A stretch of DNA of 64,000 nucleotides from Ornithinibacillus sp. 4-3 (GTDB lineage Bacteria > Bacillota > Bacilli > Bacillales > Amphibacillaceae), in NCBI RefSeq assembly GCF_040958695.1, contig NZ_CP162599.1, positions 3,258,001 to 3,322,000 on the forward strand, read 5' to 3'. Numbering within the stretch: position 1 is the stretch's first letter; every line of letters starts with the position of its first letter. The notes beneath the pieces were generated by a model, which saw nothing but the letters and a program-made list of their open reading frames with translations, had not been told where the DNA came from and made no database searches. A program made the position numbers and the translations under genes. Positions 2,124-63,289 of this stretch are shown here, piece by piece.

Positions 2124-3698
2124 TTATTCTGTGACACTCACATTCCAAAAAATCGGACCTGAAAATGCTGTCATTCCTTCAACATTACTTCTTGCAGCAT
2201 CAAAACGATTATTACCACCTAATTGAACAACTGGTAAAAGTTCTTCCCAAGCATAAAGCTGTAACTCATCCCAAAGTTCTTGAGCTTCTTCTAAAGTTGT
2301 TGCCGTTTCAATTTCTGACATTAAATCAGTAACTTTTGAATCGTCAAAGCCTGCACCCCATGTCGGACTTAAAACAACTAATTGTGGTGGAGTACTTACC
2401 GTTTGTGATGAAGAAACAAATATATCCCACTCATTTGTTGCATTTGACTGCATCTCTAATGCAGTTGGCCAATCGTAAATCTCTAAAGATGCATTCATAC
2501 CAATATTCTTCAATTGCTCTTGCACAACTACTCCAATATTATATAAGTGATCATAATCTCTTGTCGTTAAAATTCTTACTTCTTCTCCATTATAACCAGC
2601 TTCTTCTAATATTTCTTGTGCTTTTTCAGGATCATTCTGATTATAATATTCACTTCCAGCTGTGCTAGCCCAATTCGTTAATGCGACATCCATATATCCT
2701 GAATCTAGCCAATATAAATCTGGATTATGAAAAGCCGCTAACATAATCTCTTCACTATCTAAAGCAGTATTAATTGCTTCACGTATTTTAAAATCTGATG
2801 CAACACCTTCTACTGTGTTAAAAGCAATTAAATCATTTGCAGAAGGTGAAATAACTGCTTGTAAATCTGGGTTTTCTAATAGTTCCTCATAGTAATCAAA
2901 TGACAGACCATATGCAAAATCATATTCACCTGTCTGTAATCCTGCTAGACGTGTCGTTGTATCTTGAACAATATGGAAGTATAAGTCTTCAAACAATACT
3001 TCCTTCTTTCCAATTAGTCCATCCGCTTCTCCCTCAGCAGATTGGTAGTCAGCAAATTTTTTCAAATGAATATATTGATCTTGTCTCCATTCTTCAAATT
3101 GAAAAGGCCCTGTCCCAATGTATTCTTCGACACCTTCATCTGGAGCAGCTTCCACTATTTCTTTAGGCATAATTGCTGCAGATTGCTTAGATGAAGCCAA
3201 AGTATCTAAAGTTAATGCGGAAGGTTGTTTCAGTTCCAACACAACCTTATAATCATCTTCCGCTGTCCATGTTGCACCATCAAAAATATTTCCAGTAATC
3301 GAGGATTTTTCTAGCCAACGATTCATTGATGCTACAACATCCTCTGCCACCATTTCTTTATCATTATGAAACATTACACCTTCTCGCAAATGGAAAGTGT
3401 ACACCTTACCATCATCACTCACTTCTATTTCTTCTGCTAATTGTGGCACAGCCTGATAATCAGAATCTGTTGATACCAATGTTTCAAAAATTAAACGGCC
3501 AATATCACGCGTTACTGATGCTGTACTAATTGGCTGATCGAGTGTTGGAGGCTGCGAGTTTAATGCGACATTAAAAACTTCCTTTTTCTCTTCACTTGGA
3601 TTGCCGTTATTATCTTCTTCTGTATTTGAACTACAACCTACTAATGCGACTATACCTACCAGGAAAATTAATGTGACTATACACTTAAATTTTTTCAT
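2124..3698 (-). CDS. Peptide-type ABC transporter substrate-binding lipoprotein (SBP 1)
   Basis: 524 aa, SBP_bac_5 (OppA/DppA) family. A lipoprotein signal peptide ends in lipobox L-V-G-C with Cys22, followed by an acidic linker. Family blocks seen: PPTLDQPISTASVTRD near residue 50, LREGVMFHNDKEM, DVVASMNRWLE, EYIGTGPFQFEEWRQDQYIH, TRLAGLQTGEYD and a C-terminal GPIFWNVSV. It captures a peptide-like or nickel/peptide-type ligand outside the membrane; no permease or ATPase gene is adjacent. It belongs to the TLDQP subgroup with the SBPs at 3895 and 58308. A minus-strand extended -10 (TGATATACT) lies about 45 nt upstream of the start. GGAG lies upstream of ATG 3698. Confidence 0.9.
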   Translation of the reverse strand: MKKFKCIVTLIFLVGIVALVGCSSNTEEDNNGNPSEEKKEVFNVALNSQPPTLDQPISTASVTRDIGRLIFETLVSTDSDYQAVPQLAEEIEVSDDGKVYTFHLREGVMFHNDKEMVAEDVVASMNRWLEKSSITGNIFDGATWTAEDDYKVVLELKQPSALTLDTLASSKQSAAIMPKEIVEAAPDEGVEEYIGTGPFQFEEWRQDQYIHLKKFADYQSAEGEADGLIGKKEVLFEDLYFHIVQDTTTRLAGLQTGEYDFAYGLSFDYYEELLENPDLQAVISPSANDLIAFNTVEGVASDFKIREAINTALDSEEIMLAAFHNPDLYWLDSGYMDVALTNWASTAGSEYYNQNDPEKAQEILEEAGYNGEEVRILTTRDYDHLYNIGVVVQEQLKNIGMNASLEIYDWPTALEMQSNATNEWDIFVSSSQTVSTPPQLVVLSPTWGAGFDDSKVTDLMSEIETATTLEEAQELWDELQLYAWEELLPVVQLGGNNRFDAARSNVEGMTAFSGPIFWNVSVTE

Positions 3699-3840
3699 TT
3701 TTGTACGCTCCTAATTGTGATAATTTATGTGTAAAACAAATCTCAAAACAGTATATCATACATTTCCGACAAAATAACTATGAATTGCTTTTGTTTTATT
3801 TTTTTAGATAATGGTAGATATATTTTATGAATTGGCTTAA

Positions 3841-3881
3841 AAAACATGCAGTAGGTATCAAGAATACTCTCCCACTGCATG
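3841..3881 (-). terminator. Rho-independent terminator of SBP 2
   Basis: Inverted arms 3845-3855 and 3871-3881 (CATGCAGT core, one mismatch). In the minus direction they are followed by TTTTTTAAG. It ends the operon of the TPP enzyme and SBP 2. Confidence 0.75.
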
Positions 3882-3894
3882 AAATATTATTTTA

Positions 3895-5475
3895 TCAATT
3901 TTCGATCGTTGCATTCCAGAAGATTGGACCTGTTAATGTTTCGATTCCTTGCACCTTATTGTTAGCTCCATATAAATTATTATAACCGCCTAACATTGTT
4001 ATAGGTAAATGCTCTTCCCAAGCATATTGTTGTAATTCCTCCCATAACACTTGTGCCTCTTCTAAGGTAGATGCATCTTCAATTTGATCTTTTAACCCTA
4101 AAATAGTTTCGTTTCTCTTTCCACCTGCAAACGATGGACTAATATACAATAGTTGCGAAGGTGTAGTTACTATGGATGAACCGATAACAGAAGCATCCCA
4201 TTCAGTTGGTTGCTCTTGCTTCTCTAATAAAGTTGGCCAGTCATATATTTCTAATTTCACATTGACACCAATTGCTTTTAGTTGTTCTTCCATCACTACC
4301 GCAATATTATAAAATTGAGGATAATCTCTTGTTGTTAATACCCGTAATTCTTCGTTATTGTAATCAGATTCTTCTAATAATTGTTTAGCTTTATCTAGAT
4401 CATGTTGGTTATAGAATTCTTTACCTGCATCAGTAGCCCAGTTAGTTACCGTTTTGGTCATATAACTCGGGTGCAGCCAGTATAAATCTTCATCAACAAA
4501 TGCTGCAAACATCATTTGTTCTACATCATACGCAGCATTTAGTGCTTGTCTGAATTTTAGATTCGATGAAATTCCTTCATTTTCATTATATACAATTAAT
4601 GTTTCCCCATAAGTATCAAATACCGGATAAACATTCGTCTCATTTTTCAATTGATCATAGCTATCAAATGGCACTGTATAAATAAGGTCATATTCACCTG
4701 TTTGTAAACCCGTATATCTCGTAGAAGAATCTGTTACGATATAAAGATAAATATCATCTATATTAGCAATTTTTTCTCCTGCTAAACCATCTGCAGGTTC
4801 ATCTACAGGTTGATAATCTTCATTTTTTGTAAAGTGAATATACTGATCTTGTTTCCAATCTACGAACTTGTACGGGCCCGTACCAATATATTCTTTTACT
4901 CCATCAGCATCTGCTTCATCTACAATTTCTTTTGGCATAATTGCAGCTGCCATTTTTTGAGATGCCATTGTGTCTAGTACAAACACAGATGGAGATTCTA
5001 ATTGAAGCACAACAGTATAATCACCATCAGCTTCCCAGGTTGCTCCCTCAAACATTGAACCAGTCACAGAAGATTTTTCTACCCATCTCTCCATGGAAGC
5101 GATTACATCTTCGGCCAGCATTTCATCACCATTATGAAATTTAACTCCCTCTCGTAATTTAAATGTATAAATCTTATTATCATCACTAACGTCTACAGAT
5201 TCCGCTAACATCGGAACAGCCTTATACTCAGAATCTGTAGTAACCAATGTTTCATACATTAATCTCGCCGCATCACGTGTTACTGTCGCTGTACTTGTCG
5301 GTTGATCCAGTGTTGGAGGCTGCGTTGGTAAAGCAACCTTCAATACTGAATTCTCCGACTGATTTCCACTTTCTTCATTTTCATCTGTAGCTCCTGAAGG
5401 ATTACTCGAACTACATCCAACCACCATTAATAATGCAGATATTAAAACTGCAAGGAACGGAATCAGTCTTTTCAT
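3895..5475 (-). CDS. Peptide-type ABC transporter substrate-binding lipoprotein (SBP 2)
   Basis: 526 aa from the chosen start. Signal peptide MKRLIPFLAVLISALLMV, lipobox V-V-G-C with Cys21, then an Asn/Ser/Glu-rich linker. SBP_bac_5 blocks: PPTLDQPTSTATVTRDAARL, KLREGVKFHNGDEM, DVIASMERW, EYIGTGPYKFVDWKQDQYIH, C-terminal GPIFWNATIEN. ATG 5475 is preferred over the in-frame ATG at 5493 because GGGGAG lies 6 nt before it and the longer form would put acidic residues before the signal peptide. The TPP-enzyme stop is 32 nt upstream, so the two are one operon, likely under the CodY-like site at 7322. Closest in-window relatives are SBP 1 and the one at 58308. Confidence 0.9.
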   Translation of the reverse strand: MKRLIPFLAVLISALLMVVGCSSSNPSGATDENEESGNQSENSVLKVALPTQPPTLDQPTSTATVTRDAARLMYETLVTTDSEYKAVPMLAESVDVSDDNKIYTFKLREGVKFHNGDEMLAEDVIASMERWVEKSSVTGSMFEGATWEADGDYTVVLQLESPSVFVLDTMASQKMAAAIMPKEIVDEADADGVKEYIGTGPYKFVDWKQDQYIHFTKNEDYQPVDEPADGLAGEKIANIDDIYLYIVTDSSTRYTGLQTGEYDLIYTVPFDSYDQLKNETNVYPVFDTYGETLIVYNENEGISSNLKFRQALNAAYDVEQMMFAAFVDEDLYWLHPSYMTKTVTNWATDAGKEFYNQHDLDKAKQLLEESDYNNEELRVLTTRDYPQFYNIAVVMEEQLKAIGVNVKLEIYDWPTLLEKQEQPTEWDASVIGSSIVTTPSQLLYISPSFAGGKRNETILGLKDQIEDASTLEEAQVLWEELQQYAWEEHLPITMLGGYNNLYGANNKVQGIETLTGPIFWNATIEN

Positions 5476-5507: not shown

Positions 5508-7232
5508 TTAATAAGTAAGTGCTTTACGATCTTTCGGATCAATCTTACTGTCTGTACGCCAATTTGTTACTGGAGGAACAATATCCGTAATCGGATCAAT
5601 TAATGCATTTAAAAATACTGGACCATCTTGCTCTATTGCCCATTTAATTCCTTCTTCTAATTTTTCATCACTATCAATTGTTATACTCTTAATTCCAAAC
5701 CCTTCTGCAATTTTTTCTCCATCAATTGCCGCGAAGTCTACCGCAATATATTTCTCATCATAATAAAGCTGATGAAGCTTTTTAATCCATCCATAACTAT
5801 TATTTTGGAATAAGATGAACACGATTGATAGATTCAATCTTTTCGCTGTCTCTAATTCTCCAACAGACATTGCAAAGCTTCCATCTCCAAACAAAGAAAA
5901 TACCTTTGAATCAGGACTAGCAACTTTAGCACCAATTGATGCAGAAAGCGCATAACCTAGGTTCCCATGTCCACGATCAAATACAACTGTTCTTCCTGCT
6001 TTTTTCGTCTTAAAGTTTGATGCCATGTATGGATTTTGTGTACCAGCATCCATAACGAAAACAGAATTATCATCTGCTTGCTTATCTAGTTGATCAACAA
6101 TTTTCGCTGCATTCACAAAGTTTGTAGAAGCATTCACCTCTTCAGCAACACGCGCAAATTTTTCTTCCACACTTTTCTGGTACTGTGCTGTCCATGCTTG
6201 TAAATCCTGTTTGAAATCCTTACCAGAATTCTCCACACATTTATTTAGTTCTTTTAAGAACAAGTTGACATCACACATTAACGCTACTTCTGTTGGAATA
6301 TTTAAATCAAGCATTTCTTCACTAATATCAACTTGAACAACCTTTGGATTACTTTTGAAAATTGTTTTTGCTACCGTTGTTACATTATTCAATTTCGAAC
6401 CGAGGACTAGTATGAAATCAGATTCTTTAATAACGTCATTTGTTTCATCTGTTCCGCCGTTCACTCCAATTACACCTACTGCATGTGGTGAAGTTTCAGC
6501 TACACTTCCTTTTCCATTAATCGATGTAACAACAGGAATCGCATTGTCATTCATAAATTTCTCTAGCTCTTCATAAGCTTTTGATAAATGAACACCACCG
6601 CCAGCTAAAACAATCGGACGTTTTGCCTGAGCTAATAATTGGTATACCTTTTCAACTTCTTCCGCTGCCGGTGCATTTCTAAAGGAAATTTTACTAGTTG
6701 CCTGTAAATCTGCTGGCGCATAATCAAACTCCGCCTCATGGATATCTTCTGGAACAGAAATATGAATTGCTCCAGGTCTTCCACTTGTTGCAATACGAAA
6801 AGCCTTTTTAATCGTGTGTGGAACCTTCGAAGCTAATTTTAATGTCGTATTCCATTTAGTAACTGGTCTTAAGAAATCCTCTTGTCTTAGTTCTGTAAGT
6901 GCTCCTGTACCTTCACTGCTTCTAGAAATGTCTGAAGAGAAGCAAATAATAGGAATAGAAGATGAATTTGCTTCACTAAGTGCTGCTGCAACGTATAGTA
7001 CCCCTCCACCACTTGGTACATCAACAACACCTGGTTTACCTGAAACTCTTGCATACGTATCTGCCATATAACCTGCATGACGCTCGTCACGACAAGAGAT
7101 ATATTTAATTTGATCTTTATATTTCTCAAACGCATTATGGAAAGTCATACTTGTATCACCCGGGATACCAAAAACTACCTCTACATTATTCGCAATCAAT
7201 AATTCTACAATTGCATCTGCTGCTCTCATCAT
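5508..7232 (-). CDS. Thiamine-diphosphate enzyme, acetolactate-synthase-like
   Basis: 574 aa with the three-domain TPP layout. The N-terminal pyrimidine-binding domain has F-G-I-P-G-D-T and a conserved Glu in C-R-D-E-R-H-A-G-Y-M-A. A central Rossmann-like domain follows (A-G-G-G-V-H-L-S near residue 210). The C-terminal PP domain has G-D-G-S-F-A-M about 28 residues before N-N-S-Y-G-W, the Mg/ThDP motif. Related enzymes are acetolactate synthase, sulfoacetaldehyde acetyltransferase, glyoxylate carboligase and oxalyl-CoA decarboxylase; the specific reaction cannot be fixed here. No regulatory small subunit adjoins it, which argues for a catabolic rather than biosynthetic role. Start at tandem ATGs 7232/7229 behind AAGGAG. 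First gene of a unit with SBP 2. Confidence 0.8.
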   Translation of the reverse strand: MMRAADAIVELLIANNVEVVFGIPGDTSMTFHNAFEKYKDQIKYISCRDERHAGYMADTYARVSGKPGVVDVPSGGGVLYVAAALSEANSSSIPIICFSSDISRSSEGTGALTELRQEDFLRPVTKWNTTLKLASKVPHTIKKAFRIATSGRPGAIHISVPEDIHEAEFDYAPADLQATSKISFRNAPAAEEVEKVYQLLAQAKRPIVLAGGGVHLSKAYEELEKFMNDNAIPVVTSINGKGSVAETSPHAVGVIGVNGGTDETNDVIKESDFILVLGSKLNNVTTVAKTIFKSNPKVVQVDISEEMLDLNIPTEVALMCDVNLFLKELNKCVENSGKDFKQDLQAWTAQYQKSVEEKFARVAEEVNASTNFVNAAKIVDQLDKQADDNSVFVMDAGTQNPYMASNFKTKKAGRTVVFDRGHGNLGYALSASIGAKVASPDSKVFSLFGDGSFAMSVGELETAKRLNLSIVFILFQNNSYGWIKKLHQLYYDEKYIAVDFAAIDGEKIAEGFGIKSITIDSDEKLEEGIKWAIEQDGPVFLNALIDPITDIVPPVTNWRTDSKIDPKDRKALTY

Positions 7233-7336: not shown

Positions 7337-7344
7337 TAATGTTA

Positions 7345-7764: not shown

Positions 7765-8844
7765 TTACTTTACAAAATCCATATTTCCCCATTTATCTAT
7801 GTTCTTCACAAGTGCTTCCAATAGTTTATAGGCAGTTTCGAAATCATTTAAGTCAGCTACCTCTACTGGAGAATGTGAATAGCGTCGAGCGATTACAATT
7901 GCTCCTGATAGCACCCCTTCTTTCACAAGATGAACTGCAGAAACATCTGAAGATCCATTCGCTGTTACGGACAACTGATATGGCAGATTTTCTTCTTTTG
8001 AGAAACGTACAAATAAATCTTTCATTTGATGTGCCATTATATTTCCATTTGCGGATTTTTGTCCTGCTGCTAACAGAGGAAAAACAGGGCCTTTCCCTAT
8101 TTCTACTGGATAAGAATCTACATCTGGTGTATCTCCACATGCAATCGTATCAATAACAATTGCATAATCTGGATTGACCTTGTAAGTAGAAACTTTTGCT
8201 CCACGTAAGCCTACCTCTTCTTGTGCAGTAACTACTCCAACAAGCTTCCCACTAAAATTACGTTCTTGTAGATTTTTAAATAACTCAATTAATAATAAAC
8301 AACAGCTTCTATTATCAATTGCCTTTCCACAAATTAAATCCGGGTTTGTAAAACGATCAATACCACTAATATATGTAACTGGATCACCAATGTTTATTCC
8401 CATTTCAATGACATCATCAAAAGATTTCGCACCAACATCTACATATAATTGATTCATTGGAGGTGCTGTGCGTTTTTCATCTGGCGCTTGATGATGCCCT
8501 GCCTTCACACCAACTACACCAAAATGCCCGTTAACTTCCACTTTACGCCCGATTAATAATGCTTCAGATACCCCACCAAGTCCTTCAATACGTAAGAATC
8601 CATCTTTTTCAATGGTGCTAACTAATGCACCAATTTCATCAGAGTGAGCACCTATCATAACGGTTGGACCAGGTTGATTACCTTCTAAATAAGCGTATAA
8701 GTTCCCCATATGATCAACTTCAACCTTATCAGCATGTGGTTTTATCAGCTCTACTAAACGCTTCACTACATGATATTCATGGCCTGGGGCTCCAGGAATT
8801 GCTGCTAATTCTTTCAAATCATTATAAAAGTTTTCTTTAAACAA
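7765..8844 (-). CDS. M42 family metallo-aminopeptidase (glutamyl aminopeptidase-like)
   Basis: 359 aa. M42 hallmarks: I-G-A-H-S-D-E-I-G (first His/Asp metal ligands), C-G-K-A-I-D-N-R-S (bridging Asp), A-Q-E-E-V-G-L-R-G-A (catalytic and metal-binding Glu pair), V-I-D-T (Asp) and a C-terminal R-R-Y-S-H-S-P-V-E (His). These form dodecameric cytosolic aminopeptidases that finish peptide degradation, often acting on acidic N-termini. TTG at 8844 is chosen because GGAG lies 7 nt before it. The in-frame ATG at 8853 directly abuts GGAG and would have no spacing. Single-gene unit, fitting with the window's peptide-use theme. Confidence 0.87.
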   Translation of the reverse strand: MFKENFYNDLKELAAIPGAPGHEYHVVKRLVELIKPHADKVEVDHMGNLYAYLEGNQPGPTVMIGAHSDEIGALVSTIEKDGFLRIEGLGGVSEALLIGRKVEVNGHFGVVGVKAGHHQAPDEKRTAPPMNQLYVDVGAKSFDDVIEMGINIGDPVTYISGIDRFTNPDLICGKAIDNRSCCLLLIELFKNLQERNFSGKLVGVVTAQEEVGLRGAKVSTYKVNPDYAIVIDTIACGDTPDVDSYPVEIGKGPVFPLLAAGQKSANGNIMAHQMKDLFVRFSKEENLPYQLSVTANGSSDVSAVHLVKEGVLSGAIVIARRYSHSPVEVADLNDFETAYKLLEALVKNIDKWGNMDFVK

Positions 8845-9019
8845 TATATTCATCTCCGTTCATTTTGGTGGGAATTTTTAGAATTTTCGTTTTTATTTTA
8901 ATATAATTAGAAATACATGTCAATTTTCGATATACTTCTATATTTAACTTATCAAGCAAAATTAACCTGTCGTAAGGGTATAGAAAATGTTGAGATTCAT
9001 TCATAGAATTATGCAGTTT

Positions 9020-10687: not shown

Positions 10688-11387
10688 TTCTGCGGCTAGA
10701 AGCCTCTGTTACCGGCCTTGGCCTTAAAGGCCCACTGAATGGGTTTCCCTTTTGCACCACACTTACTCACTGATTCTAAAAGAATCTCTTATTTCTTTTT
10801 ATTTTTCTTCCCTGTAAATGGATCAAATTCTTCGAATAAAGTTAATTGATCACTCATGTAGTCATCTTTAAGCTGATTTCTTATGTATTCTTGTATTTGA
10901 TTTTTATTTCTTCCCACTGTATCTACAAAGTAGCCTCGACACCAGAATTTTCGATTACCGTATCTGTACTTTAAATTCGCGTGACGATCAAATATCATTA
11001 AGCTACTTTTTCCTTTTAAGTATCCCATGAAGGAAGATACACTTAATTTCGGTGGTATACTCACTAACATATGAATATGATCTCTACACGCATTTGCCTC
11101 GTGTATATCAACTTCTTTTCTTTCACAAAGCTCTCTTATAATTTCTCCAATACTTTGTTTGTATTTTCCATAAATCACTTGTCTTCTATATTTTGGAGCA
11201 AATACTATATGATACTTACATCTCCACTTTGTATGTGCTAAACTATTCTTGTCCTGCATAGGGCTTTGCCTCCTTCTTTGGTGAGTTTTGGTGGTCGGGA
11301 AACCAACCTTAGCTTACCATGAAGAGAGGCTTTTTTTGACCCCACGCTTGAAGCTCTTTAGAACCCCCGGCATAGCCAGGGGTTTTC
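10688..11387 (-). mobile_element. IS200-type insertion sequence (tnpA only), boundaries approximate
   Basis: About 700 bp: one Y1 transposase gene flanked by subterminal hairpins rather than terminal inverted repeats, as in the IS200/IS605 family. The tnpA-proximal end has a hairpin at 11362-11384 (AACCCC-x-GG arms, loop CATAG). The other end has a GGCCTT/AAGGCC hairpin near 10714-10730. A further hairpin lies in the leader near 11288-11310. No tnpB is present. The element sits right against the terminator of the preceding gene. Exact cleavage sites were not determined. Confidence 0.7.
10789..11259 (-). CDS. tnpA: IS200/IS605-type Y1 transposase TnpA
   Basis: 156 aa, full length for the family. 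HUH motif in R-D-H-I-H-M-L-V (near residue 70) and the single catalytic Tyr in N-Q-I-Q-E-Y-I-R-N (near residue 128), which forms the 5'-phosphotyrosine link with single-stranded DNA. The N-terminal K-Y-H-I-V-F-A-P-K-Y-R and C-R-G-Y-F-V-D-T-V-G blocks are typical of IS200-like enzymes. ATG at 11259 behind AAGGAGG. It appears intact, so the element may be mobile. The Lys-rich C-terminus (KKNKKK) is normal for this group. Confidence 0.93.
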   Translation of the reverse strand: MQDKNSLAHTKWRCKYHIVFAPKYRRQVIYGKYKQSIGEIIRELCERKEVDIHEANACRDHIHMLVSIPPKLSVSSFMGYLKGKSSLMIFDRHANLKYRYGNRKFWCRGYFVDTVGRNKNQIQEYIRNQLKDDYMSDQLTLFEEFDPFTGKKNKKK

Positions 11388-20245: not shown

Positions 20246-20258
20246 CACAAACCTTTTA

Positions 20259-23837: not shown

Positions 23838-23860
23838 TCAAATCACCAAGTTCAATTTAT

Positions 23861-25984: not shown

Positions 25985-26137
25985 AATCGCACTCCTTAAA
26001 ATTTGAACATAATCTATTATAATTACCTTATACATAATACCATAACAGGATTAAAAATTTTATTATGTTAATAAAATTTAACAGGATTATCATACTTTGA
26101 ATTGGTACAGTATTGTTAATATACCCACATAAAAACA

Positions 26138-36122: not shown

Positions 36123-36363
36123 CTTATTTCCCTCCAAAATAACTTATACTAGATTAATTTCTATACCATTCTTTTATATTTTAACATTTATTATGTAGCT
36201 AAACATCATAATATTAAGAATTTTAACTTTCGTTTGTTCATTCGAATCTCCTAAGTCGTAATTTCCTTGAAATTACATTGACAATAAGCTTTTTCTTTAG
36301 TAACTTATTAACAATGTACAGAATCTGCTTTGTTTTTTATAAAGATTAAAGGAAGAAAAAACA

Positions 36364-39757: not shown

Positions 39758-39905
39758 TTGAATCACTCCTGGTATTTTTTTGATTACATATTCCATCATA
39801 TCATTTTTCAAACATTCTTACTTAATTGAATTTCTTAATGAATAAGATTGATGTAAAATTCAATTTTTATATGTTCTAAGATTACTAAGGTTTTTCAAAA
39901 AACAA

Positions 39906-44036: not shown

Positions 44037-44060
44037 CTGTCTCCTCCCTTTCGTAGAAAA

Positions 44061-44086
44061 GTCGCACATAGATTTGTATGCGCGAC
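44061..44086 (-). promoter_or_regulatory. Intergenic hairpin between SBP 5 and serine hydrolase genes
   Basis: 10-bp stem (GTCGCGCATA with one G-U wobble), 6-nt loop; the minus direction continues TTTTCTACG and then the ribosome-binding site of the next gene. Weak attenuator or 3'-stabilising hairpin. Confidence 0.6.
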
Positions 44087-49984: not shown

Positions 49985-51592
49985 TTATTCTTCTACGGAT
50001 ACATTCCATAATACTGGACCAATAAAGTTTTGGAATCCTTGTACTTTTTCTGAATATCCATCTGTATTTTTAAATAGACCTAAGATAATCAGTGGTAAAT
50101 AATCCCAAAATTCTTCTTGCAGTTGCTCTGCAATTGCTGTTGCTTCTTCTTGGGAAGTCGCATTACTAATATCTTCTAAATACTGATCTAATTCAGGGCT
50201 ATTTGTCCATCCTGGATATTCTGCTTTAGAATCAAGGAAGTTATAACCATGTGGAATCACTTGTGTATCCCAACCTGTGAAGAAAATATCCCATAGCTCA
50301 GGATCAGAGCGTCGATCAAGTAAGGTTGCCCAGTCAAAAACATCAAGTTTTGCATTTACTCCTACTTTTTCCAGTTGCTGTTGAACAGCAACCGCCGCAT
50401 TATAGTAATGTGGATATTCACGAGAAGTTAGTATGACAATTTCTTCTCCATCATAACCAGCTTCTTCTAAAAGGCTTTGTGTGAGCTCTGGATCTTGTTG
50501 ATTATACATTTCTTTCCCAGCATCTGAATACCAATTCACTATCTCTGGCGTAAATAATCCATGTTCTAATTCATAAAATTGCTCATCTCCAAAGGAAGCT
50601 CTTAATACCCCTTCAAAGTCAAGCGCTGCGTTAACGGCTTGACGCATATTCTTATCTGCAAATACACCTTGTTGCTTATTGAAAATAAGGAGCTCCTTAC
50701 CATATGTCCAAATTTCTGGCTGAATTCCTTCGTTTTCTTCAATTTGTTTTACATTATCATGTGCTACACCAATGGAAATATCGTATTCTCCACTAATTAA
50801 TCCACTGATACGTGTAGACTCATCTGGAACGAAATTCCAATAAATCTCATCTACTAATGCTTTCTTCTCACCTGCTAGACCACTTGCAGGTTCTGTTCTT
50901 GATTGATAATCATCAAATTTCTTATAGTGAATATATTGATCTGTTTTCCATTCTACAAATTCAAATGGACCTGTTCCAATATACTCTTCCGCTCCTGCTT
51001 CCGTAGCAGATTCAGCAATTTCCTTTGGCATTATAGCAGCTACTTGGTTTTGCTCAGCAACTGTATATAATGCGATAGAAGAAGGTTTCTCTAACTGTAA
51101 CTCTACAGTTTCTTCATCAATTTTCTCCCATTTTGCACCAGGAATACTTGCACTTGCCTGCTGTGACATTTCTAACCAACGATTCATTGATGCGAGAACA
51201 TCATCTGCTGTCATTTCATTTCCATTATGGAATTTCACACCTTTTCTTAGCTTAAAAATAATGCTTTTCCCATCTTCGCTTTCCTCAAAAGATTCTGCTA
51301 ACATTGGCACCACTTCATAGTTTTCATTTACGGTTACCAATGTCTCAAAAATTGGTTTTGCTGCATATGCCGTTGCTGTTGCGGTTGTTACTAATGGGTC
51401 AATTGTATTTGGCTGTTGCCCAATCGATAAATTTAATGTTCCTCCACTTGTCTCCGCTTCAGTTTCTTCACCAGTTGACCCGTCATCCTGCTTTTCATTG
51501 CCATTCTCTGAGTCACTATCATTACTGCAACCAATCAAGCCTATTGTCACAATAAACAGTAACAGCAACAGTGAATACGCTTTCATTTTCAT
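49985..51592 (-). CDS. Peptide-type ABC transporter substrate-binding lipoprotein (SBP 7)
   Basis: 535 aa from ATG 51592 (GGGG 9 nt upstream; in-frame starts at 51598 and 51622 are less well spaced). Lipobox L-I-G-C with Cys22, Glu/Asp-rich linker, L-S-I-G-Q-Q-P-N-T-I-D-P-L-V-T-T-A-T-A-T-A-Y-A-A-K-P-I-F-E-T, KLRKGVKFHNGNEM, DVLASMNRWLE, EYIGTGPFEFVEWKTDQYIH, TRISGLISGEYD, GPVLWNVSVEE. It shares most of these with SBP 8, including Y-A-A-K-P-I-F-E, V-I-P-H-G-Y and K-N-T-D-G-Y-S-x-K-V, so the pair is the most recent duplication in the window. Confidence 0.9.
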   Translation of the reverse strand: MKMKAYSLLLLLFIVTIGLIGCSNDSDSENGNEKQDDGSTGEETEAETSGGTLNLSIGQQPNTIDPLVTTATATAYAAKPIFETLVTVNENYEVVPMLAESFEESEDGKSIIFKLRKGVKFHNGNEMTADDVLASMNRWLEMSQQASASIPGAKWEKIDEETVELQLEKPSSIALYTVAEQNQVAAIMPKEIAESATEAGAEEYIGTGPFEFVEWKTDQYIHYKKFDDYQSRTEPASGLAGEKKALVDEIYWNFVPDESTRISGLISGEYDISIGVAHDNVKQIEENEGIQPEIWTYGKELLIFNKQQGVFADKNMRQAVNAALDFEGVLRASFGDEQFYELEHGLFTPEIVNWYSDAGKEMYNQQDPELTQSLLEEAGYDGEEIVILTSREYPHYYNAAVAVQQQLEKVGVNAKLDVFDWATLLDRRSDPELWDIFFTGWDTQVIPHGYNFLDSKAEYPGWTNSPELDQYLEDISNATSQEEATAIAEQLQEEFWDYLPLIILGLFKNTDGYSEKVQGFQNFIGPVLWNVSVEE

Positions 51593-51814: not shown

Positions 51815-53398
51815 TTATTCTTCCACGCTTACATTCCAAATGGTAGGGCCAATAAAGTTTTCAAAGCCTGACACTTTATCTGAATACCCATCTGTATTTT
51901 TAAATAATCCTAAGTTAACTACTGGTAGATATTCCCAAAATTCCTCTTGTAATTTCCCTACAGCTACTTTTGCTTCTTCTTGTGTAGCTGCATCACCAAT
52001 TTCTTCTAACAACTCGTCCATTTCTAGGCTATTTGTCCAGCCTGCCCACTCCGTTTTAGAATCGATAAATGCATAACCATGTGGAATCACTTGTGTATCC
52101 CAGCCTGTAAAGAAAATATCCCATAGTTCTGGATCAGAACGACGATCAAGTAATGTTGCCCAATCATAGATATCAAGCTTAACATTCAAACCTACTTGCT
52201 CTAATTGCTGCTGTACTGCAACGGCTGCATTATAGTAATGCGGATATTCACGGCTTGTTAAAATTGTAATTTCTTCTCCATCATACCCAGCTTCTTCTAG
52301 TAATTGTTGCGCTTGTTCTACATCTTTTTGATTATATTTATCTTTTCCAGTATCTACATACCAATCTTCCATATGCGGTTGGAAAATCCCGTGTTCTAAC
52401 TCAAAGAAATGATCTGCTCCAAAAGAAGCTAATAAAACTGCTTCAAAATCAAGTGCTGCATTAATTGCTTGACGCATCTTTTGCTCTGTAAATACGCCCT
52501 CTTTCTTGTTGAAAACAAGTAATTCCATTCCATATGTCCAAATTTCTGGTTCAATACCATCTGTTGCTTCAATTTGTTGTACATTATCAGGAGATACTCC
52601 AATAGAAACATCGTATTCTCCACTGATTAATCCACTAATTCGCGTAGATTCATCTGGGACGAAATTCCAATATACATCGTCTACTAATGCTATTTTCTCA
52701 CCTGCTAAACCACTTGCTGGCTCTGTTCTTGGTTGGTAATCTTCAAATTTTGTATAATGTATATATTGATCTGTTTTCCATTCCACAAACTGGAAAGGAC
52801 CAGTTCCAATATACTCATCTACTCCATTTTCTCCAGCTGCTTCAACAATTTCTTTTGGCATTACTGCTGCTTGTTGATTTTGCTCTGCTACAGTAAACAA
52901 TGCAATTAAAGAAGGCTCCTCTAATTGTAATTCAATTGTTTCTTCATCTACTTTCTCCCATTTTGCATCTGCTAAACTTGCTTTTGCCTGTGACGACATT
53001 TCCATCCAACGGTTCATAGAGGCTAATACATCGTCAGCTGTCATTTCTTCTCCATTATGGAATTTAATTCCACTTCTTAATTTGAATGTAATTGTTTTTC
53101 CATCTTCACTTACTTCATATGTTTCAGCTAACATTGGTGCTATTTCAAAGTTTTCATTTAATGTTAATAATGATTCAAATATTGGTTTTGCTGCATATGC
53201 AGTTGCTGTTGCTGTTGTTACTAATGGATCAATTGTATTCGGTTGCTGACCTAATGCCATTTGAAGTGTACTTTTCGCTTCTGTTTCTTCACCTTTTGTA
53301 GCTCCATCATTATTTTTAGATTCTCCACTATTGCCACAAGCTACTAAAGCCACTGCTAGAATTAATAATAGCAGTAAGGAATATATTTTCCCTTTCAT
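51815..53398 (-). CDS. Peptide-type ABC transporter substrate-binding lipoprotein (SBP 8)
   Basis: 527 aa. Lipobox L-V-A-C with Cys21. L-G-Q-Q-P-N-T-I-D-P-L-V-T-T-A-T-A-T-A-Y-A-A-K, KLRSGIKFHNGEEM, DVLASMNRWME, EYIGTGPFQFVEWKTDQYIH, TRISGLISGEYD, GPTIWNVSVEE. ATG behind GGGGGAAAC. Well-formed promoter about 75-100 nt upstream and a loose CodY-like sequence beyond it (AATACTCAGAAAAAT at 53520-53534, 12 of 15). Sister of SBP 7. Neighbouring genes offer no permease. Confidence 0.9.
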   Translation of the reverse strand: MKGKIYSLLLLLILAVALVACGNSGESKNNDGATKGEETEAKSTLQMALGQQPNTIDPLVTTATATAYAAKPIFESLLTLNENFEIAPMLAETYEVSEDGKTITFKLRSGIKFHNGEEMTADDVLASMNRWMEMSSQAKASLADAKWEKVDEETIELQLEEPSLIALFTVAEQNQQAAVMPKEIVEAAGENGVDEYIGTGPFQFVEWKTDQYIHYTKFEDYQPRTEPASGLAGEKIALVDDVYWNFVPDESTRISGLISGEYDVSIGVSPDNVQQIEATDGIEPEIWTYGMELLVFNKKEGVFTEQKMRQAINAALDFEAVLLASFGADHFFELEHGIFQPHMEDWYVDTGKDKYNQKDVEQAQQLLEEAGYDGEEITILTSREYPHYYNAAVAVQQQLEQVGLNVKLDIYDWATLLDRRSDPELWDIFFTGWDTQVIPHGYAFIDSKTEWAGWTNSLEMDELLEEIGDAATQEEAKVAVGKLQEEFWEYLPVVNLGLFKNTDGYSDKVSGFENFIGPTIWNVSVEE

Positions 53399-56417: not shown

Positions 56418-58187
56418 TTATACAAATAGGGAAATAAATTCTTGTTTATTTACATCTACTAATCCAAGGTCACTTACTCGCACTTCTGGGATAACTGTTA
56501 AGCTAATGGATGAGAAAGCCATTACAGGTGAACGTCGTCCCACTTTGACACCCATTTCTAGCGCTTTTTGAGCAAAGTTTTCTACCTTAGGTGCTAATTC
56601 TTCAATTGGTTCTGGAGCCATTAAACCTGCAAGTGGTAATTCTACTGTTGCTACGGTGTTACCATCTTTTACAAGGCATAATCCTCCACCACTTGCTTTT
56701 ATTTGTTCAGCCGCAGCTAGCATATCACTAGGATTTTTTCCTGCTACTACTAGATTATGACTATCATGTGCCATTGTTGTTGCATATGCGCCTTCACGTA
56801 AACCTGCATTTTTCATCACTGCTACAAATGGTTTACGATTTTGACCATGTCTACCAGTCACAGAAATAAAAATACAATCTTCTGGTAGCTTAGAAACTTT
56901 CCCATCTACTACGTCTACTTCCACTGTATCTAGTGTTGTAATTCCAATTTTAGTTACTTCCACTGTATGAATAGTTGCCTTTCCGTTTTCTATTGGAGCC
57001 TTAATCATAAAGTCTTCTTCTACTAATTCTGGAATTCTAACGGTATTAGGTAGTTGTAGAGGAGTAGGGCTCACAATTTCTTTCGTTACTTGTCCATCAG
57101 CAACTACTTGTTCTCCTTTTACATATACATCTGTGACTTCCATTGTTTCTAAGGAATCAACAAGCACTAAATCTGCTAGATATCCTGCAGCAATAGCTCC
57201 TACATCACGTAAGCCAAAGCGCATCGCCCCATTTAACGTTGCGTAACGAATAGCAAGAGCTGCCGGAATTCCTTCCTCAATACATCTGCGAATTACACGA
57301 TTCATCTGACCATTTTTAATGATGTCATGTGGCGCGATGTCATCTGTACACATTTGAACATTCGATGCATGTGGTAGTTGTTGTAGAGCCTGTGCAGCAA
57401 TGTCAGCAAATTTACTTACACTAGACTCACGAATATAAATATTCATGCCTGCTCGTAGTTTTTCAACAATCTCAGCTGTTCCACGACTTTCATGCTCTGA
57501 ATGCACACCAGCCGCTAGATACGCATGTAAATCACGTCCAGTCACACGCGGGGCATGTCCTTCATTAAGAACTTGATGCTCAAGACCTGTGTGGACGATA
57601 TCTGCCATGCGTTGATCTTGTTTAATTACTCCCGTATAATCCATTAATTCCGCAATTCCAACTACATCAGGCAAATCAAGGAGCTCTGCAATATCATCAG
57701 CTAAAAACTCCGCTCCAGCTGTCTCTATTCCTTGTACAGCTGGCACACAGGAAGGAATAGTTGTTAATACACGCACAGGTAGATTTTGACTTGCCTTAAC
57801 GATTTGTTTAACACCTTCTGCTCCCATTACATTCGCAATTTCATGTGGATCAATCACAGCAACAGTTGTTCCATGGCGGAGAACCGCACGAGCAAACATA
57901 TCTGGAGCCATCATTGTACTTTCAATATGTACATGCGCATCAATAAATCCAGGCATTGCATAAGATCCTTTTGCCGAAACTGCTCGCTCTCCTTCTATGT
58001 AAAATTGTGGTTTCCCATCTTCATAACGTGCAATCGCTGCAAAACGATCTTCTTTTATCCCAATATCTGCAACATAAATTTCTGCTGTAAATACATTCAC
58101 TAAATTGACTTCTCGGATTACTAAATCCATTGGAACATCGCCTCTAGCTGCTGCAACAATCTGTGTACGATCGATGTTTTTATTCAT
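56418..58187 (-). CDS. ade: Adenine deaminase
   Basis: 589 aa, full length. Amidohydrolase TIM barrel: M-P-G-F-I-D-A-H-V-H-I-E-S-T-M near residue 79 (metal-binding His pair and Glu), V-I-D-P-H-E-I-A-N near 111, N-E-G-H-A-P near 211, T-D-D-I-A-P near 281. The C-terminal AdeC-specific domain has A-T-T-M-A-H-D-S-H-N-L near 481. It converts adenine to hypoxanthine plus ammonia for purine salvage or nitrogen supply. Behind AGGAGG. It follows an SBP gene with a strong hairpin between; no purine (PurR/xpt-type) riboswitch is visible in the 120-nt gap. Confidence 0.95.
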   Translation of the reverse strand: MNKNIDRTQIVAAARGDVPMDLVIREVNLVNVFTAEIYVADIGIKEDRFAAIARYEDGKPQFYIEGERAVSAKGSYAMPGFIDAHVHIESTMMAPDMFARAVLRHGTTVAVIDPHEIANVMGAEGVKQIVKASQNLPVRVLTTIPSCVPAVQGIETAGAEFLADDIAELLDLPDVVGIAELMDYTGVIKQDQRMADIVHTGLEHQVLNEGHAPRVTGRDLHAYLAAGVHSEHESRGTAEIVEKLRAGMNIYIRESSVSKFADIAAQALQQLPHASNVQMCTDDIAPHDIIKNGQMNRVIRRCIEEGIPAALAIRYATLNGAMRFGLRDVGAIAAGYLADLVLVDSLETMEVTDVYVKGEQVVADGQVTKEIVSPTPLQLPNTVRIPELVEEDFMIKAPIENGKATIHTVEVTKIGITTLDTVEVDVVDGKVSKLPEDCIFISVTGRHGQNRKPFVAVMKNAGLREGAYATTMAHDSHNLVVAGKNPSDMLAAAEQIKASGGGLCLVKDGNTVATVELPLAGLMAPEPIEELAPKVENFAQKALEMGVKVGRRSPVMAFSSISLTVIPEVRVSDLGLVDVNKQEFISLFV

Positions 58188-58307: not shown

Positions 58308-59888
58308 TTATTTGTTAACTTTTGTATTCCAGAAAATTGCTCCAGAGAATGTTGTAAATCCTTCTACTTTTGCAGAAGCCGCATGGAACATACTATATCC
58401 ACCTAAAATAGATACTGGAACATGCTCTTCCCATGCATATTGTTGTATATCATCCCAGATTTGTTTTGCTTCTTCCTGACTTTCTGAAGTTTCTATTGCA
58501 CTTAATTGTTCTAAAATCTTATCATCATTTACGCCACCACCCCAAGTAGGGCTTAATGCTAATAATTGTGGCGGTGTACTAACTACAGATGAACCAGTAA
58601 TAAACATATTCCACGTGCTTAAATCCTCACGCATTTTAAACATTGTTGGCATATCATACACTTCTAATTCTACCTCAATACCAATTTCTTTTAGCTGCTG
58701 TTGAATAACAACAGATGAATTATAAATTACGTCATCATCACGTGTTGAAATAATTGTAAGTGTTTCTCCATTATATCCAGCTTCGTCTAATAACTGTTTA
58801 GCTTTATCAGGATCTGCTTGGTTGTAATACTCTATACCCGCTTCACTATTCCAAGCCTCAATATCTTTATGCATGTAGCCTGGGCTTAACCAATATAAAT
58901 CCTCTGTTACTACTGCACCTAACATAATTTCATCCATGTCTAATGCTGCATTGATCGCTTGACGCATTTTTGGATCGGTTACTAGACCTTCTCCTTTATT
59001 ATACACAAGCATCAGCTCACCATGTGTTGCTGGATAAGGCTCTACATTCTCATCATTTGCTATTTGCTCATAATCATCGTTTGGAATTTGGTACGCGATA
59101 TCATATTCACCTGTTTTTAAACCTGCTAATCGAGTGGAAGCATCTGTAACAATATGTACATAAATATCTTGTACTAATGCTTCACGTTTACCTGCTAAAC
59201 CATCTGGCTCATCTTCTAGCGCGCTATATTCATCATACTTTTCGAAATGAATATATTGATCTTGCTTCCATTCTACAAATTTAAATGGTCCTGTTCCAAT
59301 GTATTCTTCAACACCTTCTGCTGGGGCAGCTTCAACAATTTCCTTAGGCATAATCGCCGCTGCTTGTTTAGAAGATGCTAATGTATCTAATGTTAAAGAG
59401 GAAGGCTTCGCTAATTGTAGTACTACTGTATATTCATCTTCTTCCGTCCATACTGCATCATTAAAAATATTTCCTGTTATTGTAGATTTTTCCATCCAAC
59501 GGTCCATAGAAGCAACAACATCTTCTGCTTTCATTTCTTTACCATTATGGAATTCTACACCTTGTCTTAATTTAAATGTATAGGATAATCCATCTTCACT
59601 AACATCAATAGAATCTGCTAACATAGGTACAGGCTTATATGCCGAATCATTTGTTACTAAAGTTTCAAACATTAACCTACCAATATCACGTGACTGGATT
59701 CCTGTATCCATCGGTTGATCAAGTGTTGCAGGTGCTGAATAAAGCGCAACATGAAGTTCATCTTCTGTAGCATCAGCTGAATTTTCCGTACCTTCTTCAT
59801 CTGCGCCTTTATCATCTGACGAACAGCCAATTAATGCAACGGTAAAAATAAAGACCACTAAAACTTGAAATAATCTGCGAAACAACAT
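58308..59888 (-). CDS. Peptide-type ABC transporter substrate-binding lipoprotein (SBP 9)
   Basis: 526 aa. Lipobox L-I-G-C with Cys22, acidic linker, then L-Y-S-A-P-A-T-L-D-Q-P-M-D-T-G-I-Q-S-R-D (Ala-Pro-Ala where relatives have Gln-Pro-Pro), KLRQGVEFHNGKEM, DVVASMDRWME, EYIGTGPFKFVEWKQDQYIH, TRLAGLKTGEYD, GAIFWNTKVNK. TLDQP places it with SBPs 1 and 2, 53 kb away. ATG behind AGGAGG. Same-strand adenine deaminase follows after a hairpin. Confidence 0.9.
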   Translation of the reverse strand: MLFRRLFQVLVVFIFTVALIGCSSDDKGADEEGTENSADATEDELHVALYSAPATLDQPMDTGIQSRDIGRLMFETLVTNDSAYKPVPMLADSIDVSEDGLSYTFKLRQGVEFHNGKEMKAEDVVASMDRWMEKSTITGNIFNDAVWTEEDEYTVVLQLAKPSSLTLDTLASSKQAAAIMPKEIVEAAPAEGVEEYIGTGPFKFVEWKQDQYIHFEKYDEYSALEDEPDGLAGKREALVQDIYVHIVTDASTRLAGLKTGEYDIAYQIPNDDYEQIANDENVEPYPATHGELMLVYNKGEGLVTDPKMRQAINAALDMDEIMLGAVVTEDLYWLSPGYMHKDIEAWNSEAGIEYYNQADPDKAKQLLDEAGYNGETLTIISTRDDDVIYNSSVVIQQQLKEIGIEVELEVYDMPTMFKMREDLSTWNMFITGSSVVSTPPQLLALSPTWGGGVNDDKILEQLSAIETSESQEEAKQIWDDIQQYAWEEHVPVSILGGYSMFHAASAKVEGFTTFSGAIFWNTKVNK

Positions 59889-59961
59889 TTCACTTCCTCC
59901 TAATATAATTGGTTTTAAAGTTGTTTATAAACCATTCATTTTCATATAAAACGACTCCAAT

Positions 59962-59989: not shown

Positions 59990-60223
59990 ACTATTTCTAA
60001 AGAAATCGAAAAATCTTTAGGCTAAATGTCATTACTATGGAAATATTTGTAATTGCAGTAGATTACTTTTTTTCTTTCCATAATCTTATCATTTCTACTT
60101 ACATACCCGAACCTTAACATTACTACTAAATCAAAACTTCTACTTACAAAGATTTACTTATGAACCTATTTGCACTAAAATTAGAAATAGATTTAAAATT
60201 AAAATGATTTGGAGGTATTTCTA

Positions 60224-61432: not shown

Positions 61433-61433
61433 C

Positions 61434-61578: not shown

Positions 61579-61641
61579 ATGGCTACCTCTGAATAAGAAT
61601 AAATTTGCGCAAAACTCTTATACTTTCATATCTCATAAGAA

Positions 61642-61677
61642 AAACGGTATCCTCATTAACTAGTGAGAATACCGTTT
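61642..61677. terminator. Bidirectional terminator before SBP 10
   Basis: 14-nt arms with one mismatch (AAACGGTAT-x-CTCA), 8-nt loop; tails TTTCTTTC (plus) and TTTTTCTTATG (minus). Confidence 0.75.
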
Positions 61678-61693
61678 CTTTCATTCTATTTTA

Positions 61694-63289
61694 TTATTGA
61701 TTAAGGCTTGTGTTCCAGAATACTGGTCCATCTAAGTATAAGAAGCCTTCAATGTTTTTGTTAACTCCCATAACTGTAGTATAGTCAGAGATTTTTAGAA
61801 TCGGAAGAATCTCCCAAGAATGACCTTGTAGCTCATCCCAGAATACTTTAGCTTCTTCAATTGTATCTGCTGTTGCGATATCTTTTAATAATTGTTCTGT
61901 TTTCTCATCTTCTGGTCCATCAATCCAAGTATCATTATAGAATAATTGTTCTACTGGTGTCATAGTCATTGGGAAACCTGTAATTAGTAGGTCCCACTTT
62001 GATGGATCATCACGTAGGGTTAAAACAGTTGCCCAATCATATACTTCTAAGTCAACTTTAATTCCAACTTGTTCTAGCTGTTCTTTAATAATAACAGCAG
62101 AATCATACATATAGGAATATTCACGTGATGTAATGAATGTTAATGGCTCGCCATCATAATTTATTTCATCTAATAATGCTTGTACTTTATCAGGGTCAGG
62201 ATTATTATATAGCTCTTCCCCTTCAGTTGATGCCCATGCTTCTTGTTCTACTTGCATATAGCTCGAAGACATTCTGTACTTACCACCTAATGCAGCGTTT
62301 GCAATATCTTCTAAATTCAGTGCCGCATTAACGGCTTGGCGCATTTTCACTTCTGCAAATTGACCTTCAAACTTATTGAATACAATTCCATATTGCCCAA
62401 TAATTGGCGCAACTGCTTCTACATCTTCTGCACTTTCTAATTGATCAAACATATCATAGCTCATCCCGTGACCAATATGGTACTGACCTGTAGTAACTCC
62501 ACCTAATTGTGTATTTGGATCTGGAACAAAGTTAATATATACATTATCAAAATAAGCAATTCTTTCTCCAGCTAGACCATCCGCCGTTTCTTCGCGTGGA
62601 GTATAATCTTCAAACTTCTCTAAATGTACATATTGGTCTTGTTTCCATTCGACAAACTTGAATGGCGCTGTTCCAATATGTTCTTCTACTCCTGTTTCTG
62701 TTGCTGCTTCAACAATTTCCTTTGGCATAATTCCTGGGAATTGTAATGTTCCTCCTAAGGCTAAAAGAACAAAAATAGATGGTTCCTGTAATTTTAATTC
62801 TACTGTGTACTTGTCAACTTCTTCAAATGTACCTTCTCCAATTAAAGATTGTGCAGTTGAAGATCTTTCTAGCCATCTGTTCATGGAAGCTACAACATCG
62901 TCTGCTGTCATTTCTTCTCCATTATGGAATTTAATACCTTCACGTAGATTAAATGTATAAGTTAATCCATCCTCACTTATTTCCCAAGACTCTGCTAGCA
63001 TGGGTTGCGGTTCATAAGCAGAATCAATGGTAACAAGCGTTTCATAAATATGTCTCGAAATATCACGTGTTGCCGTAGCTGTAGACATAATTGGATCGAT
63101 TGTTGGTGGTTGTGTATTTAAGACAAACTGCAAATCTCCGCCTGCAGTTTGCTCTCCACTGCTTTCATTATTATCGTTGCTGCCTTCTGAGTTATTATCA
63201 GAAGAATTATCGTCATTATTACTACATGCAGCTAGTACCAATAGTACCGCTAAGAACATTAGCAATAACGTCTTATTAATTACTTTCAT
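61694..63289 (-). CDS. Peptide-type ABC transporter substrate-binding lipoprotein (SBP 10)
   Basis: 531 aa. Lipobox L-A-A-C with Cys22, an Asn/Asp/Ser linker of about 25 residues, L-N-T-Q-P-P-T-I-D-P-I-M-S-T-A-T-A-T-R-D, NLREGIKFHNGEEM, DVVASMNRWLE, EHIGTAPFKFVEWKQDQYVH (G-T-A-P instead of G-T-G-P), T-T-G-Q-Y-H-I in place of L-x-x-G-E-Y-D, C-terminal GPVFWNTSLNQ. The most divergent SBP here in the ligand-lobe motifs, so it probably has a different ligand. ATG upstream of GGGGG-rich leader. Monocistronic. Confidence 0.9.
   Translation of the reverse strand: MKVINKTLLLMFLAVLLVLAACSNNDDNSSDNNSEGSNDNNESSGEQTAGGDLQFVLNTQPPTIDPIMSTATATRDISRHIYETLVTIDSAYEPQPMLAESWEISEDGLTYTFNLREGIKFHNGEEMTADDVVASMNRWLERSSTAQSLIGEGTFEEVDKYTVELKLQEPSIFVLLALGGTLQFPGIMPKEIVEAATETGVEEHIGTAPFKFVEWKQDQYVHLEKFEDYTPREETADGLAGERIAYFDNVYINFVPDPNTQLGGVTTGQYHIGHGMSYDMFDQLESAEDVEAVAPIIGQYGIVFNKFEGQFAEVKMRQAVNAALNLEDIANAALGGKYRMSSSYMQVEQEAWASTEGEELYNNPDPDKVQALLDEINYDGEPLTFITSREYSYMYDSAVIIKEQLEQVGIKVDLEVYDWATVLTLRDDPSKWDLLITGFPMTMTPVEQLFYNDTWIDGPEDEKTEQLLKDIATADTIEEAKVFWDELQGHSWEILPILKISDYTTVMGVNKNIEGFLYLDGPVFWNTSLNQ

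Follow-up and report, generated by a model that had tools for sequence, protein, structure and literature searches.

Several peptide solute-binding proteins (SBPs) share one permease in the Borrelia OppA1-5 set and in the pneumococcal AmiA-AliA-AliB set, and in the group II energy-coupling factor (ECF) transporters one energising module is common to many specificity components encoded at separate loci. The tripartite tricarboxylate transporters (TTT), which are also considered below, are not driven by ATP. In Pseudomonas aeruginosa, deletion and complementation showed that DppA1-A5 serve one DppBCDF, with DppA5 giving no complementation under the conditions of that study; four of the five DppA genes have neighbouring locus tags and are largely interchangeable on di- and tripeptides (PMC4206461). 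Orphan TTT SBPs occur by the hundreds in Bordetella and Rhodoplanes, with at most four membrane partners in Bordetella (PMC5994714). In the present study, we analysed a 64-kb stretch (C1:3258001-3322000, hereafter the window) of the genome of Ornithinibacillus sp. 4-3 (G000; a single contig of 3,694,176 b), which carries ten genes for SBPs of the SBP_bac_5 family. These genes belong to a clade of 92 members in this genome, for which a single OppBCDF encoded outside the window is the probable transporter.

Orphan receptors and a candidate hub transporter

The original prediction placed ten full-length SBP_bac_5 lipoprotein genes in the window, and all ten were recovered with the predicted starts. 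Each product matched PF00496 (SBP_bac_5) at 233-260 bits against a cut-off of 32.4, aligned over approximately 350 of the 368 profile positions, and carried a lipobox; PF00496 was the sole Pfam family matched, and the proteins are not members of the TctC/Bug family. The genes are as follows, in window positions, with the evidence for each assignment.

2124-3698, minus strand: SBP_bac_5 lipoprotein of the 92-member clade, S3260382m (PF00496 233 bits; lipobox LVGC; tree)
3895-5475, minus strand: SBP_bac_5 lipoprotein of the 92-member clade, S3262156m (PF00496 240 bits; lipobox; tree)
33295-34884, plus strand: SBP_bac_5 lipoprotein of the 92-member clade, S3291559p (PF00496 233 bits; lipobox; tree)
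41378-42991, minus strand: SBP_bac_5 lipoprotein of the 92-member clade, S3299636m (PF00496 257 bits; lipobox; tree)
44100-45725, minus strand: SBP_bac_5 lipoprotein of the 92-member clade, S3302364m (PF00496 259 bits; lipobox; tree)
48239-49819, minus strand: SBP_bac_5 lipoprotein of the 92-member clade, S3306470m (PF00496 234 bits; lipobox; tree)
49985-51592, minus strand: SBP_bac_5 lipoprotein of the 92-member clade, S3308228m (PF00496 260 bits; homologue search)
51815-53398, minus strand: SBP_bac_5 lipoprotein of the 92-member clade, S3310061m (PF00496 258 bits; lipobox; tree)
58308-59888, minus strand: SBP_bac_5 lipoprotein of the 92-member clade, S3316566m (PF00496 243 bits; lipobox; tree)
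61694-63289, minus strand: SBP_bac_5 lipoprotein of the 92-member clade, S3319937m (PF00496 246 bits)

A FastTree phylogeny of all 103 SBP_bac_5 proteins of the genome placed 92, the ten of the window included, in one group separate from the 11 others. The sequence subgroups proposed for the window were borne out in this tree: the TLDQP members (2124, 3895, and 58308) fell together within one larger clade, the FAFNAQPP members (41378 and 44100) were sisters, the QQP members (48239, 49985, and 51815) formed one clade, and the two singletons paired with genes outside the window, namely, 33295 with 2797612p elsewhere in the genome and 61694 with 3323825m just beyond the window. Identities within the 92 ranged between 30 and 81%, with a median of 43%, and those to the 11 other SBPs between 16 and 30%. 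An assembly artefact or a set of recent tandem copies was rejected because of this median and maximum and because the genome is a single contig.

The members of the clade lie in 38 clusters (separation greater than 12 kb), with 31 of the 92 located between 3.20 and 3.47 Mb. A random scatter of the 92 would place 1.6 genes in 64 kb, against the ten present (Poisson P of approximately 7e-6, although the genes are clustered), and the real excess of SBP_bac_5 genes is genome-wide, not specific to the window. The 103 matches, all of which scored above the curated cut-off, occupy 164,421 b, or 4.45% of the genome. The 40 relatives compared had 1-21 matches to PF00496 and 1-14 to OppC_N; this genome has approximately five times the SBPs of the next-highest relative and an ordinary number of permeases.

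The whole-genome count of OppBCDF components that had been suggested as a check gave ten permease pairs and ten ATPase pairs against the 103 SBP genes, an over-representation of SBPs in this lineage for which the membrane partners are few. The permeases comprised ten OppB-type matches (PF19300) and nine OppC_N matches (PF12911), with a tenth OppC at 3333911 that was found by reading the locus and also matched PF00528; among the Opp-type ATPases, 19 were found by oligo_HPY and one by reading the locus (3335824). These scans placed no Opp permease or ATPase in the window. A Pfam scan of the 43 window proteins agreed with the prediction that TagGH are the only ABC (ATP-binding cassette) subunits present:

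18908-20248: ABC_tran protein, read as TagH (Pfam)
20259-21080: ABC2_membrane protein, read as TagG (Pfam)

Of the ten permease pairs, nine lie next to an SBP of their own, of another lineage, and nine of the 11 non-clade SBPs adjoin an OppBC pair, within 0.7 kb of a permease gene. The canonical Opp/Dpp operon layout is absent from the 92 clade members, hereafter the orphans: none has a type-I permease gene within 2 kb (36 such genes in the genome), four have one within 5 kb, and 12 within 10 kb; over all 92, the distance has a median of 53 kb. Dedicated permease and ATPase genes flanking each SBP group, an objection that the original prediction had itself raised, were rejected, as none was found in the genome-wide scans.

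Two observations on the other systems are recorded here. The set at 464084-467693 consists of SBP-OppB-OppC without ATPases and a distant Opp-type ATPase pair at 2590719-2592757 has no permeases; the two are therefore likely partners and probably belong together. Of three related SBPs of another lineage (959708, 965318, and 3360376; also given as C1:959486, 965066, and 3360106), which have hydrolase-like neighbours, only one adjoins an OppBCDF, and 959708 and 3360376 may share the system of their relative 965318, which would be a small second case of sharing.

A second objection foreseen for the window SBPs was that they might be mostly degenerate in sister strains. In this one strain, 90 of the 92 orphans were intact; the same-genus genome G001 had no clade member among its 30 scored candidates. 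A length of at least 500 aa was found in 90 orphans and the lipobox pattern in 91, and only two were visibly broken (642021p with an in-frame stop and 2808259m truncated to 385 aa); degenerate copies were thus rejected for all orphans except these two. The ratio of nonsynonymous to synonymous substitution rates (dN/dS) was 0.07-0.21 in the 14 closest orphan pairs, with dS near saturation in several; it was 0.165 for the window pair 49985-51592 and 51815-53398, and 0.17 for 61694-63289 and 3323825m. Purifying selection acts on close orphan pairs. The two broken genes are what one would expect of a set that is mostly relic DNA from duplications or transfers and functionless at present, but the lengths, lipoboxes, and dN/dS values of the others make this explanation scarcely credible.

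The OppBCDF at C1:2613349-2617292 (minus strand), hereafter the hub, is the only Opp system without an adjoining SBP. We take the gene upstream of it to encode an M20-like peptidase and the group downstream to be pgk-tpi-gpmI-eno-like; three orphan SBPs lie approximately 4-10 kb upstream. The hub is assigned to the orphans because, by elimination, it remains as the sole OppBCDF without an SBP, which sets 92 SBPs of one clade against one hub-type OppB. Judging from the sequence evidence, we consider it quite probable that the 92 receptors deliver their ligands to this single system. In the mechanism that we propose, lipoprotein receptors of family 5 (peptide/opine/nickel type), encoded at many loci and often beside a hydrolase or catabolic enzyme that probably acts on the same nutrient, would capture their ligands at the cell surface and dock on OppBC; OppDF would power import, and the neighbouring enzyme would then degrade the imported ligand. 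The ancestral state may have been one SBP inside a normal SBP-OppBCDF operon, from which the receptors would have multiplied and dispersed as the translocator remained single.

Co-occurrence, origin, and alternative transporters

We searched 159 genomes of the family with a profile of 32 of the 92 orphans (A1), scoring the best nine or fewer candidates per genome. The scores separated into at least 620 bits in G000 and seven other genomes, 444-477 bits in a sister group, and at most 278 bits in all others listed. Two clade members were found in G172 and one each in G134, G128, G142, G080, G096, and G045, and none among all 30 scored candidates of G001. Among 397 genomes of the order, with the best three candidates of each, 29 had a match at E of 1e-125 or less (G000 included, some at the level of the sister group); scoring of all candidates gave 12 clade members in G192 and 13 in G385, two species of one genus, and one or two in the others. 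Clade-level scores (540 bits or more) were reached in 28 foreign genomes in the searches of the family and order, of which we took 24, leaving out G391, G412, G432, and G471. A search of 398 genomes of the phylum gave matches in six genomes other than G000, with a best score of 533 bits; these were not counted as clade members. The number of clade copies per hub is thus graded, at 1-2, 12, 13, and 92, and the phylogeny with related genomes that had been recommended places the window SBPs within a 92-member clade that has single-copy, operon-linked members in other Bacilli. G385 (L203-L211) and G192 (L212-L213), in which one hub-type OppB accompanies 13 and 12 clade SBPs, respectively, resemble an intermediate stage of expansion.

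The seven family genomes with clade SBPs have an OppBCDF whose OppB and OppC share 53-79% identity with those of the hub, against 27-43% for the nine other systems of G000. It directly adjoins a clade SBP in six of the seven, and in G134 the distance is 1.2 kb with a DUF1028 gene between. The hub grouped with these seven at a support of 1.0 in the OppB tree and 0.989 in the OppC tree, and the permeases of the sister SBP group fell outside this grouping. The hub has no SBP directly upstream of it in G192, G385, or G000; in G192 and G385, the OppBCDF is followed by same-strand M81-like and amidase-like genes and then by a clade SBP, and one SBP may therefore be operon-linked downstream of the hub in these two genomes.

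A second profile (A2) for the hub-type OppB, which was built from G000 and the seven genomes, was run against 60 genomes, of which 25 (G000 among them) have the clade and 35 do not. A hub-type OppB (451-595 bits) was present once in each of the 25, including 17 outside profile building, and in none of the 35, in which the best match was 395 bits (Fisher P 2e-17, with relatedness ignored and the threshold read off the score gap). No more than 320 b separates the SBP match from the hub OppB match in 20 of the 24 foreign genomes, the exceptions being G134 (1.2 kb), G192 and G385 (approximately 6 kb), and G353 (both at the ends of different contigs). When 80 named loci with a hub-like OppB were inspected (own genome excluded), 69 had a clade SBP (at least 540 bits) in the stored flank, which in 55 of them ends less than 400 b upstream of OppB; the remaining 11 were truncated loci or had more distant OppBs (50-64% identical), some without this SBP type in the flank. 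The expectation of many receptors sharing one transporter encoded elsewhere is supported by this co-occurrence together with the 92 SBPs of one clade and the one OppBCDF that lacks an SBP. In four records named Arthrobacter or Brevibacterium (L131, L149, L153, and L154), clade-level SBPs (566-587 bits) flank a hub-like OppB, which suggests transfer outside Bacilli or misnamed records.

Results that weigh against the assignment of the whole clade to the hub, or limit the support for it, are considered here together with those on the origin of the clade. In a tree of the 90 intact orphans, 77 foreign members, and 13 members from G385 (one G385 gene probably appearing twice, as L105), the orphans formed 39 maximal pure clades, the largest of 25, and the set is not the product of one recent burst; a single species-specific burst was rejected because foreign members interleave. 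The closest sampled sequence was another G000 orphan for 75 of the 90 and a foreign one for 15, which, with the 39 clades, argues that the clade predates the species; this genome gained its receptors by duplication and probably also by transfer. A protein search with window SBP 49985-51592 gave, among its closest outside relatives, proteins of Caldalkalibacillus and Geobacillus that are 58-60% identical to it. The node between the clade and its sister group is weak (0.506, and 0.018 in another tree), with the two together fully supported (1.0). The absence of the clade in the 35 genomes rests on the best nine or fewer candidates in the family, three in the order, and 30 in G001, and was not shown individually for G034-G036. 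In support of the assignment, a homologous neighbour was common to a foreign clade SBP and its closest orphan in seven of 90 pairs against 2.64 expected, and all seven belong to the 37 pairs with an identity of at least 50%, for which 0.85 would be expected. In G385, the neighbours in common include a thiamine-pyrophosphate (TPP) enzyme and an M20-like enzyme, and in three Brevibacillus records an enzyme of the AAT family; these seven are not independent, with three Brevibacillus loci and two loci with one LysR-like match. Five consensus motifs showed no clear enrichment upstream of the 92 orphans over 397 control genes: CodY-like in 16 vs 61, sigma-54-like in 6 vs 43, and TnrA-like in 3 vs 17, with cre-like (20 vs 56; 22% vs 14%) and sigma-A-like (23 vs 63; 25% vs 16%) somewhat commoner. 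A common regulon was rejected on these five motifs, in a test that did not include a de novo motif search.

The remaining two points concern the transporter itself: the other nine Opp systems could accept clade SBPs as well, and conservation within the SBPs does not single out the hub. Twenty-two positions combine conservation of at least 85% among the orphans and at least 80% among the foreign members with presence in no more than 20% of the 11 other SBPs. Thirteen of these are also conserved in the sister group, the permeases of which differ, and the 22 therefore do not prove that a docking face specific to the hub exists. Some of the 22 may form a docking face, although common descent alone would also give such positions. 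Alternatively, several of the ten Opp-type transporters might serve the 92 SBPs promiscuously, since all ten are of the same type and all of the SBPs match the same family; the trio of related SBPs around 965318 apparently uses one system, and the sister group combines its 13 positions with another permease type. However, the orphans are distant from the 11 SBPs of the other systems, the other nine of the 22 positions are common to the foreign operon-linked members and are not found in the sister group or the 11 others, and the co-occurrence is specific to the hub-type OppB. Promiscuous service would also leave the hub as an OppBCDF without a receptor, and we regard it as unlikely in comparison with delivery to the single hub.

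Enzyme neighbours and candidate ligands

Several enzyme genes lie beside the SBPs of the window.

611-2035, minus strand: M20 peptidase, putative cassette enzyme (PF01546 44 bits), 88 b downstream of SBP 2124-3698
5508-7232, minus strand: TPP enzyme, putative cassette enzyme (PF02775/PF00205/PF02776), 32 b upstream of SBP 3895-5475
7765-8853: M42 enzyme (Pfam)
34941-36137, minus strand: M20 amidohydrolase (PF01546 143 bits), convergent with SBP 33295-34884 across a 56-b gap
38288-39811, minus strand: M81 (MlrC-like) metallopeptidase (PF07364 309 bits, PF07171 200 bits), two genes downstream of SBP 41378-42991
39949-41298, minus strand: PGA_cap family protein (PF09587 189 bits), 79 b downstream of SBP 41378-42991
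43251-44069, minus strand: Beta-lactamase2-family serine hydrolase (PF13354 179 bits), with a clade SBP on either side, 30 b downstream of one and 283 b from the other (by one start call)
45902-47011, plus strand: mandelate racemase/muconate-lactonizing (MR/MLE) family enzyme (PF13378/PF02746), presumably dipeptide-epimerase-like, divergent from SBP 44100-45725
56418-58187, minus strand: adenine deaminase-type amidohydrolase (PF13382/PF01979), 120 b downstream of SBP 58308-59888

Genome-wide, 74 of the 92 orphans have a same-strand neighbour within 300 b, SBPs included (mechanical gene calls), and in 30 the immediate neighbour is another SBP. The 79 non-SBP same-strand neighbours of at least 120 aa matched 69 Pfam families, among which M20 was found in nine, S9 in five, AAT and DAO in four each, M81, Beta-lactamase, and each of two amidohydrolase families in three, and Beta-lactamase2, GGT, M19, CN hydrolase, creatininase, and DUF1028 in two each. 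The control consisted of 106 of 183 genes located at least three genes from any SBP, with Opp-bearing loci, the window, and loci after L046 omitted; M20 occurred in three of these genes, and S9, AAT, and M81 were outside the 25 families listed of 118. On the assumption of one such domain per protein, M20, S9, AAT, and M81 together account for 21 of the 79 neighbours against three of the 106 controls (P 2e-6), or at most six of the 106 if one hidden member is allowed per family (P 9e-5). The same-strand neighbours of the orphans are therefore enriched in peptidases.

Another explanation is that many of the orphans do not transport, and instead sense, signal, or hold nutrients at the surface. 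Some neighbourhoods contain regulators (presumably LysR-like; PucR, in the control set). A role of this kind was raised as an alternative for some expanded orphan TTT SBPs (PMC5994714). The immediate same-strand neighbours are, however, rich in catabolic enzymes, no sensor-kinase family was among the 25 commonest of the 69 neighbour families, and 20 of the 24 other genomes show linkage between the clade and OppBCDF, and we consider a non-transporting role for many of the orphans to be improbable.

The best solved relative by sequence was 8vdx ('bacterial extracellular solute-binding protein'), with AgaA, AppA, AccA, and DppA scoring lower; these relatives are compatible with peptides and opine-like compounds as possible ligands. 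That each receptor is tuned to a different ligand and promoter, as had been predicted, has only circumstantial backing: the neighbouring enzymes differ, and the five consensus motifs are not clearly common upstream. Extending delivery to the hub by a further step, we tentatively suggest a plug-in form of uptake, in which one OppBCDF would import diverse small molecules, specificity would reside wholly in interchangeable receptors, and a receptor with its own hydrolase would form a portable cassette gained by duplication or horizontal transfer into hub-bearing Bacilli. The candidate substrates, which form part of the same tentative proposal, would be peptides, acylated amino acids, and hydantoin-, creatinine-, and purine-like amides.

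Other features of the window were also noted. Three CDP-glycerol glycerophosphotransferase-family proteins (PF04464), within 22656-26035 and 30395-31588, surround TagGH and a cytidylyltransferase (30013-30411), and one of them (23861-26035) also carries a family-2 glycosyltransferase domain as a fusion. At its C terminus, the TagH-like ATPase matches a GW domain (21.8 bits, barely above the cut-off), and this stretch resembles the GW repeats of a 1070-aa glucosaminidase at 26192-29404. An IS200-like transposase (PF01797) is located at 10789-11259 and a YhgA-like Transposase_31 protein (PF04754) at 47190-48185.

Comparison with known systems

The use of a shared ABC importer found in the open literature extends to five SBPs, and here the ratio, if true, would be approximately 92:1 in a 3.7-Mb genome. 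This would make it testable how far the SBP alone carries the specificity of a type I importer and how dozens of receptors share one docking site. Since many of the receptors adjoin an enzyme, the neighbourhoods also offer a bioinformatic route to ligands, and the assignment of a permease by elimination and co-occurrence may be applied to other orphan SBPs, such as those in Bordetella and Rhodoplanes. No report of an SBP_bac_5 expansion of this size was found in the open-licence literature, a search that did not cover subscription papers.

As in the DppA1-A5/DppBCDF system, several SBPs would serve one importer in the present case; in contrast to the five SBPs of that system, there are 92, dispersed in 38 clusters beside many different enzymes. 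The expanded TTT SBPs likewise form a massive orphan family with few membrane partners and genome-wide scatter, but belong to another SBP family, another transporter class, and proteobacteria, whereas an ABC importer, a Gram-positive host, and one identifiable hub are involved here. The systems of Borrelia and pneumococci also have multiple SBPs per permease, but only three to five and in host-bound bacteria, and we know of no enzyme cassettes in them; ECF group II differs in that a membrane protein serves as the specificity component, without any SBP. As far as open papers show, the sharing scheme is known in kind, and its novelty lies in the ratio, the class of transporter, the enzyme cassettes, and the occurrence in a Gram-positive host.

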